In this document: positions 36,608 through 37,040 of the stretch, in pieces
Numbering within the stretch: the stretch's first letter is position 1
Layout: the number at the start of each line of letters is the position of its first letter
Source of the DNA: an uncultured Pseudomonadales bacterium
Lineage (GTDB): Bacteria > Pseudomonadota > Gammaproteobacteria > Pseudomonadales > Azotimanducaceae
Direction of reading: 5' to 3'
DNA: 64,000 nucleotides
Assembly (NCBI GenBank): GCA_951813295.1
Contig: CATOTI010000001.1
Span: forward strand, 372,001 to 436,000
The notes under the pieces: model-generated
Told to the model about the DNA's origin: nothing
The model's input: the letters and a program-made list of their open reading frames with translations, nothing else
Databases searched by the model: none
Position numbers and translations under genes: made by a program

Positions 36608-36684
36608 CGGGGTATAGCGCAGTCTGGTAGCGCGCCTGCTTTGGGAGCAGGATGTCGGGAGTTCAAATCTCTCTACCCCGACCA
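36608..36684 (+). tRNA. tRNA-Pro(UGG)
   Basis: 77 nt with encoded CCA. Acceptor CGGGGTA pairs with TACCCCG; D arm GCGC..GCGC; anticodon stem CCTGC/GCAGG with loop TTTGGGA, anticodon TGG at 36642-36644; T arm with GTTCAAATC. It is the first gene of a two-tRNA unit, with only AATT before tRNA-Arg. Confidence 0.97.
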
Positions 36685-36688
36685 AATT

Positions 36689-37040
36689 GCGCCCGTAGCT
36701 CAACTGGATAGAGCATCGGCCTTTGAGCGATCGAGATCGATCACGAGGAGCCGCTGTCGGGAAACGGGAACCGACAGCGTGGACTGCACCGTAACGGGGA
36801 AACCTCAACGTTCGTCGAGAACACTGGCAACCCCGTGGAAACCGAGGCGATGAAAGGCCGCAGAAGCGGGGTACATCGCCCACTTCGCGAAAGCGAAACG
36901 GGCTCCGTAGAGACTAGACGTGCAGCACCTGAGACGGTGAAGGGATAGTCCAGACTCCAAACCGCATCATGCGGGCTACGAAAGTAGTGGTGGGTAAGCT
37001 AAGCCGAGGGTTGAAGGTTCGAGTCCTTCCGGGCGTACCA
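36689..37040 (+). tRNA. tRNA-Arg(UCU) interrupted by a group I intron
   Basis: 5' exon 36689-36723 and 3' exon 36999-37040 join to a normal 77-nt tRNA with CCA. Acceptor GCGCCCG/CGGGCGT (one G-U), D arm GCTC..GAGC, anticodon stem TCGGC/GCCGA, loop C-T-T-C-T-A-A, T arm GAAGG..CCTTC with GTTCGAGTC. The joined anticodon is TCT, arginine. The exon segment CCTTCTAA is identical to that of E. coli tRNA-Arg(UCU). The interruption falls between positions 34 and 35, inside the anticodon, so the gene is functional only if the intron is removed. Confidence 0.93.
36724..36998 (+). ncRNA. Group I self-splicing intron (IC3-like) in tRNA-Arg
   Basis: About 275 nt. The 5' exon ends CCUU; the guide GAGG at 36745-36748 pairs with it, leaving the required G-U at the splice site. 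P2 is a 9-bp stem (36752-36760 with 36771-36779). A TTCGC-GAAA-GCGAA hairpin is at 36884-36897. The conserved core elements AGACTAGACG (36911-36920) and GAAGGGATAGTCC (36939-36951) correspond to the R and S elements around P7. A CTAC-GAAA-GTAG hairpin (36976-36987) suits P9. The last base is G (36998). The core wording resembles cyanobacterial tRNA-Leu introns. There is no ORF inside, so no homing endonuclease. Confidence 0.9.

Follow-up and report, generated by a model that had tools for sequence, protein, structure and literature searches.

The tRNA-Arg(UCU) gene (36689-37040) in the 64,000-nucleotide stretch of DNA analysed here (hereafter the window) is interrupted by an insert of 275 nt (36724-36998), for which the best reading, already put forward in a preliminary description of this DNA, is a group I intron at position 34/35, given the exact empty sites in relatives, the covariation of its helices and the existence of homologues. 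The evidence supports its membership of the group I introns, within a variant lineage that largely escapes the standard model. Very probably, the insert is a ribozyme that excises itself from the precursor of the only tRNA-Arg(UCU) in the cell, and belongs to a mobile lineage as a member devoid of endonuclease.

With introns allowed, ARAGORN reported a tRNA-Arg(tct) of 77 bases at this place, with an intron of 275 bases and the joint gcctt/ctaag. The 5′ exon (36689-36723; all features of the window given here are on the forward strand) ends in GGCCUU, the last U being position 34, the intron (36724-36998) closes with a terminal G, and the 3′ exon (36999-37040) opens with CUAAGCC and encodes the CCA end. 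Once joined, the exons yield a complete 77-nt tRNA fold with the anticodon UCU, and the insertion point between bases 35 and 36 of the gene corresponds to the canonical 34/35; the two exon halves forming a whole tRNA with encoded CCA and the insert of about 275 nt of the preliminary description are thereby borne out. When run without introns, ARAGORN missed this gene and listed as sole tRNA in the window the tRNA-Pro(UGG) lying directly upstream (36608-36684). The boundaries of the insert are independent of any intron model, since the exon pieces stand side by side in relatives. A search of the 352-nt stretch against 97 genomes (window genome included) gave some match in 93, and query bases 1-35 and 311-352 adjoin in relatives such as G057, G030 and G058; among the matches listed, this empty site was found in at least 12 of 15 congeners. 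ARAGORN likewise recognised an uninterrupted tRNA-Arg(tct) in 27 of the 28 relative loci L003-L030, the remaining one (L004) stopping at a contig edge. Outside the window genome, the sole full-stretch match among those listed came from G026, a member of another genus of the same family (71% identity). A gene presumed from its sequence to be folD-like, tRNA-Pro and tRNA-Arg follow each other as a recurring order in relatives and in the named gammaproteobacterial loci L047, L050, L072, and L079; the intron therefore resides in an old chromosomal locus, and the recurring order is consistent with the assignment of the host to the Gammaproteobacteria.

The insert displays the core helices P3, P4, P6, P7, and P8 of group I introns, and the conserved core elements AGACTAGACG and GATAGTCC, the GAAA loops and the terminal G listed in the preliminary description are all present. 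Canonical pairs were counted in 31-32 Arg(UCU) rows and compared with the mean of 500 strand shuffles, which ignore relatedness; L302 and L098 were left out of this count, and one row without a readable guide was also left out of P1, P10, and P2. The P2 hairpin (36752-36779, pairing 36752-36760 with 36771-36779) is 95.0% canonical in 31 rows vs. 70.3% in shuffles, P3 (5′ strand 36784-36788, partner 36921-36925) 100% in 32 rows vs. 72.0%, P4 (5′ strand 36794-36798, partner 36832-36836) 100% vs. 83.2%, the P8 hairpin CACC-UGAGAC-GGUG (36926-36939) 97.7% vs. 89.3%, and P9b 100% vs. 68.4%; for none of these five helices did any of the 500 shuffles reach the observed value. The closing pairs of P9 (36954-36957 with 36992-36995), a domain that spans 36954-36995 and encloses two hairpins, one of them with a GAAA loop (36976-36987), are 100% canonical vs. 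97.0% in shuffles. P6 with its loop (36837-36906, GGA at 36837-36839 pairing with UCC at 36904-36906) and P7 (5′ strand GACUA at 36912-36916, partner UAGUC at 36946-36950, invariant in 32 rows) pair in 32 of 32 rows and barely vary. Indeed, P1, P6, P7, and P10 are nearly invariant among the Arg(UCU) rows, where covariation is no test of them; for P7, a compensatory change (GGCCA/UGGCC) was read by eye in the phage locus L351. Every counted pair forms in the window copy. The terminal G is fixed by the empty sites for the window copy and is part of the search motif for the 34 extracted introns.

Conservation places the internal guide at 36746-36752 (AGGAGCC), in which GAG pairs with the exon CUU (P1, with a G.U pair at the splice site in the window copy) and AG with the CU of the 3′ exon (P10). 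Among 33 tabulated Arg(UCU) introns, 31 carry AG-GAG, one carries GG-GAG and one has no readable guide; the pairing of CUU with GAG in 31 of 31 scored rows is invariant and partly imposed by the search motif, and is thus consistent with P1 rather than proof of it. The pairing of GAGG with CCUU named as the guide in the preliminary description does exist in the window copy, yet GAGG was rejected as the guide for its lack of conservation across Arg(UCU) introns, the conserved guide being AGGAGCC. According to the proposed mechanism, the AG-GAG guide would align both exons, GAG with C32-U33-U34 and AG with C35-U36; because it pairs in this way with both exons, the guide amounts to a complement of the anticodon loop. 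P7, which we take to be the guanosine-binding site by analogy with known group I introns, would bind a guanosine that attacks after U34, and the freed U34 would then attack after the terminal G, thereby joining the exons and restoring the anticodon UCU.

A pattern scan of named genomes returned at least 120 loci, of which 80 were worked on and the other 40 checked later. By exon match, 18 of the 80 are Arg(UCU) introns, hosted by Gammaproteobacteria, Bacillota (L066, L076, L091, L116), Bacteroidota (L065, L074, L098), and Acidobacteriota (L063), many of these 18 host genomes being metagenome bins. The 40 loci checked later, which enter no tree, pair or guide count, comprise 9 more Arg(UCU) introns (including that of an Exiguobacterium isolate, L123, and those of two further Acidobacteriota), 22 Leu-like introns and 9 others. 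The core pattern was found in 2 of 390 genomes of the window's order, one of the two being a Leu intron and G026 lying outside that sample, and in 20 of 369 sampled genomes of its class; 15 of the 369 have an Arg(UCU)-type core, as judged by a 42-base span, and 14 have both exons. The window copy, G026, the 18 named loci and 14 loci of the class survey make up the set of 34 introns; L058 and L291 are very probably one record, so that the counts of 34, 32, and 31 contain one repeat. Genome G682 contains a pair of Arg(UCU) introns, equal in length and located on separate contigs (L295, L302). In L301 (genome G794), the usual intron end and the start of the 3′ exon were not found.

Phylogenetic analysis (91 rows, 118 columns) included 32 of the 34 extracted Arg(UCU) introns; kept out of the tree were loci that could not be cut (L054, L098, L104, L105, L301), loci judged by eye to be introns of genes other than tRNAs (L286, L289, L298), loci rich in gaps (L057, L106, L107) and the second copy of G682 (L302). 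In this tree, 47 forks of 87 of which are open, the 32 Arg(UCU) rows, the window copy among them, form one clade (SH-aLRT 100, branch 0.75) that is separate from the Leu(UAA) introns and from other tRNA introns. The exons of the Arg(UCU) loci resemble those of their hosts and the introns are alike across phyla, which is the pattern that homing would leave. These results bear on the possibility that an intron was recently transferred from tRNA-Leu(UAA) into tRNA-Arg(UCU), within this genome or its order, the common CUU exon having enabled the move. The position 34/35 and the CUU exon are indeed the same, CUAG and AAGGG near P7 are common to the window copy and most Leu introns, and Leu(UAA) introns occur both in G082 and in the window genome. 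In the latter, the tRNA-Leu(UAA) gene, absent from the called tRNAs, was recovered by a looser core pattern and has its own 242-nt group I intron at 34/35 (L347 1327-1655, i.e., G000:C2, about 3050824-3051152; RF00028 score 29.7 bits); it adjoins tRNA-Leu(UAG) and brings to two, with Arg(UCU), the interrupted tRNAs of this genome. However, the window copy does not fall within the Leu(UAA) intron clade, and P6 reads GGAAA...UCC in the Arg(UCU) clade vs. GAGCCAAG...GGUG in the Leu type. The tree disfavours a recent transfer from Leu to Arg for the window copy, to which only a slight chance is left. Such a path is possible elsewhere, as illustrated by the Arg(UCU) intron of Fibrisoma limi (L098), unplaced in the tree, which combines a Leu-type P6 core with an Arg guide and may have invaded this site independently.

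The window copy would be a minimal member of the mobile lineage. As stated in the preliminary description, it has no endonuclease ORF: no similarity to the endonucleases of its relatives was found at E ≤ 5, no remnants were seen, and the PDDEXK_5 homing endonuclease of I-Ssp6803I-type mobile introns is absent from it. Full-length endonuclease similarity was detected in 7 of the 34 introns (L065, L072, L074, L075, L099, L290, L292), five of which (L065, L072, L074, L075, L099) contain stop-to-stop frames of 138-169 aa, and remnants in three (L050, L079, L300). In some relatives the P6 loop is the site of this PD-(D/E)XK ORF. The four intron frames tested are PDDEXK_5 proteins (PF11645, 1.6e-33 to 2.6e-43), and the best match to a solved structure was 2ost (E 0.0038), which we take to be I-Ssp6803I. 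The Arg-type pattern was also encountered in seven viral contigs (L219, L354-L359), five of which show both tRNA-Arg(UCU) exons (the contig end truncates L219, and L356 yielded no 5′ exon). In five of the seven, a frame of 171-186 aa lies between the guide and P3 (the same frame in L219 as in L357), and the two frames tested are HNH_3. Some members of the lineage would accordingly have, in bacteria, a putative PD-(D/E)XK homing endonuclease within the loop of P6 and, on viral contigs, a putative HNH endonuclease within the region of P2. The lineage probably spread by homing, with the conserved DNA of the tRNA-Arg(UCU) anticodon arm as its target.

Weak core matches occur in two phage records (L350 and L351), and the tRNA-Arg(UCU) intron of a 484-kb uncultured phage lies at L351 1470-1721. 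Relatives of the bacterial endonuclease were found in 16 phage records at E ≤ 1e-5; the four described here are free-standing. In Synechococcus phage Sf-FR1 (56.5%) and in Acinetobacter phage Herod (42.9%), the relative comes directly 3′ of an intron-less tRNA-Arg(UCU); these two phages have unrelated hosts (L348 2360-2935 and L349 1912-2447). In Salmonella phage SM5 (27.7%) it follows tRNA-Met, and in Streptomyces phage Forrest (31.5%) it has tRNA-Asp as the closest tRNA; Arg is thus not the constant neighbour of the endonuclease. Plasmids gave weak core matches in four Bradyrhizobium plasmids, and no endonuclease relative at E ≤ 1e-5. Of 120 viral (IMG/VR) loci, 80 were examined and gave 85 core matches; 28 of these have a Leu(UAA) 3′ exon, two have an Ile2-like one and 55 have no recognised tRNA exon; tRNA introns thus look common in viral contigs (28 of the 85 with a Leu(UAA) 3′ exon). 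A 2014 review, in the passages concerned, places all phage introns known until then within protein genes (PMC3984707).

The assembly of the window genome (5.97 Mb in 3 contigs; completeness 98.6%, contamination 7.4%) has 39 tRNA places, and none of these ARAGORN-called tRNAs is a tct. The preliminary description had held that a second intact tRNA-Arg(UCU) would weaken its claim of function; a search of the window genome with the joined exons returned the gene's own exons, Arg(UCG) as next best and weaker matches, and no second Arg(UCU) gene. AGA accounts for 4 of the 178 Arg codons in eight nearby reading frames chosen by the analyst. With AGA in use and a second Arg(UCU) gene not found, the cell should suffer if splicing were lost. 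Separately, tRNA-Ile(CAU) was not recognised among the 39 called tRNAs, and the best match of a tRNA-Ile(CAU) probe falls at a place that ARAGORN names tRNA-Asn; this tRNA may be absent from the assembly, divergent or interrupted.

A missing Intron_gpI match was also regarded in the preliminary description as counting against function, and indeed Rfam RF00028 (Intron_gpI) gave no match at E ≤ 1 in the window copy, nor in the intron of G026. This outcome is not decisive, as RF00028 serves to detect group I introns and does not define them, and none of the related loci reaches the cut-off either: at the gathering cut-off, RF00028 detects 0 of 18 Arg(UCU) loci (one of which, L098, has a different core) vs. 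5 of 17 loci with other hosts. The positive control, the Leu(UAA) intron of G082 (L042), scored 49.4 bits (E 1.6e-10), slightly below the cut-off of 50. At E ≤ 1, one of eight Arg(UCU) loci was matched, namely L058, over the full model and weakly (21.2 bits, E 0.33). Given these counts and the control, the silence of Intron_gpI is a gap of the model: RF00028 is nearly blind to the Arg(UCU) lineage, a missing hit does not count against a group I intron, and the absent match was dropped as a refutation. The same absence could be taken, together with the long end branch of the window copy in the tree (0.32), as the mark of a dead tRNA gene whose group I intron has decayed, with AGA being read by another tRNA or the gene having been lost. 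Against such decay stand the intact pairs of all counted helices in the window copy, the use of AGA codons and the failure to find another Arg(UCU) gene in the window genome, which together make this fate slightly less probable still than a recent transfer from Leu. As for an insert spliced by enzymes (bulge-helix-bulge type) or an unrelated insertion that landed in the anticodon by chance, the failure of the Rfam model would fit either, yet the group I architecture with covariation, the homologues with homing endonucleases of group I type and the weak full-model match of L058 to RF00028 leave them next to no probability.

For the self-splicing intron that we favour, the guide offers a further reading across tRNAs. 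Leu(UAA) introns have a 3′ exon that begins with AA; of the 35 with a readable guide, 29 show the bases UU before GAG, and UU is also present in the Leu(UAA) intron of the window genome; 12 of 47 Leu loci have no guide that the script could read, one of them (L085) showing GGG where GAG was expected. The tRNA-Thr(UGU) intron of Massilia alkalitolerans at 34/35 (L093) has the guide ACGAG, where AC is as the rule predicts, and a phage tRNA-Ile(UAU) intron (L350) has an AU guide. Of 69 introns, 63 form both P10 pairs, compared with a mean of 31.4 and a maximum of 46 in 10000 shuffles, a figure in which relatedness is left in and few cases are independent. Exceptions are 6 of 36 tested Leu introns without both P10 pairs, the phage tRNA-Lys(UUU) intron of L351, and viral Arg introns in which the guide reads TG or CG and only one of the two P10 pairs forms. 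We tentatively suggest, as an idea that could well prove wrong, that the five bases NN-GAG of the guide complement the anticodon loop, that a two-base change retargets a mobile ribozyme lineage and that phage tRNA clusters are the ground on which exchange takes place. The retargeting set, proposed with the same reserve, would comprise Leu(UAA) with UU, Arg(UCU) with AG, Thr(UGU) with AC and Ile(UAU) with AU.

Several known systems resemble the window intron. Anticodon-loop group I introns with a similar P7 interrupt tRNA-Ile(CAU) in Azoarcus and tRNA-Arg(CCU) in alpha-proteobacteria, at other insertion sites and in other anticodons. Bacterial and plastid tRNA-Leu(UAA) introns have in common with it the 34/35 position, the CUU 5′ exon, the general core and the GAG of the guide, and differ by their clade, their P6 and, mostly, by UU instead of AG before GAG. 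The cyanobacterial tRNA-fMet intron with I-Ssp6803I is comparable through the endonucleases, those of some relatives being PDDEXK_5 proteins that match 2ost; its tRNA is another one, and the window copy has no endonuclease. Precedents are Ca. Maribeggiatoa (BOGUAY) and Ca. Thiomargarita nelsonii Bud S10, for which putative group I introns in tRNA-Arg-TCT have been reported (PMC4853749). The tRNA is the same, the hosts are gammaproteobacteria and tRNA-Leu-TAA is interrupted too in each genome; the likeness is one of description, the relevant part of that report leaving secondary structure and type undetermined and mentioning neither guide nor endonuclease nor distribution (PMC4853749). The preliminary description, which did not consider tRNA-Arg(UCU) in a gammaproteobacterium a standard case, was therefore anticipated in print as to the existence of such introns, and holds insofar as they were given there as putative and without structure (PMC4853749). 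Introns of 22-49 nt termed group I, as they appear in the cited part of another report, are no comparable case (PMC5733544). The literature searched, which covered few subscription papers, gave no account of the lineage, of its guide rule or of its endonucleases.

The lineage may have consequences for the annotation of bacterial genomes. By their authors' account, as far as the relevant passages go, tRNAscan-SE 2.0 was not built with group I introns in view, and a 2025 group I intron database is described in the part concerned as seeded by Rfam model hits, so that it may under-count the Arg(UCU) lineage (PMC11835236). ARAGORN run without introns and the Rfam model both miss the lineage, and affected genomes can consequently seem to be without an AGA-reading tRNA. 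The agreement between guide and anticodon constitutes a testable rule for the choice of host by tRNA introns, and the links with phages suggest how such introns cross phyla.
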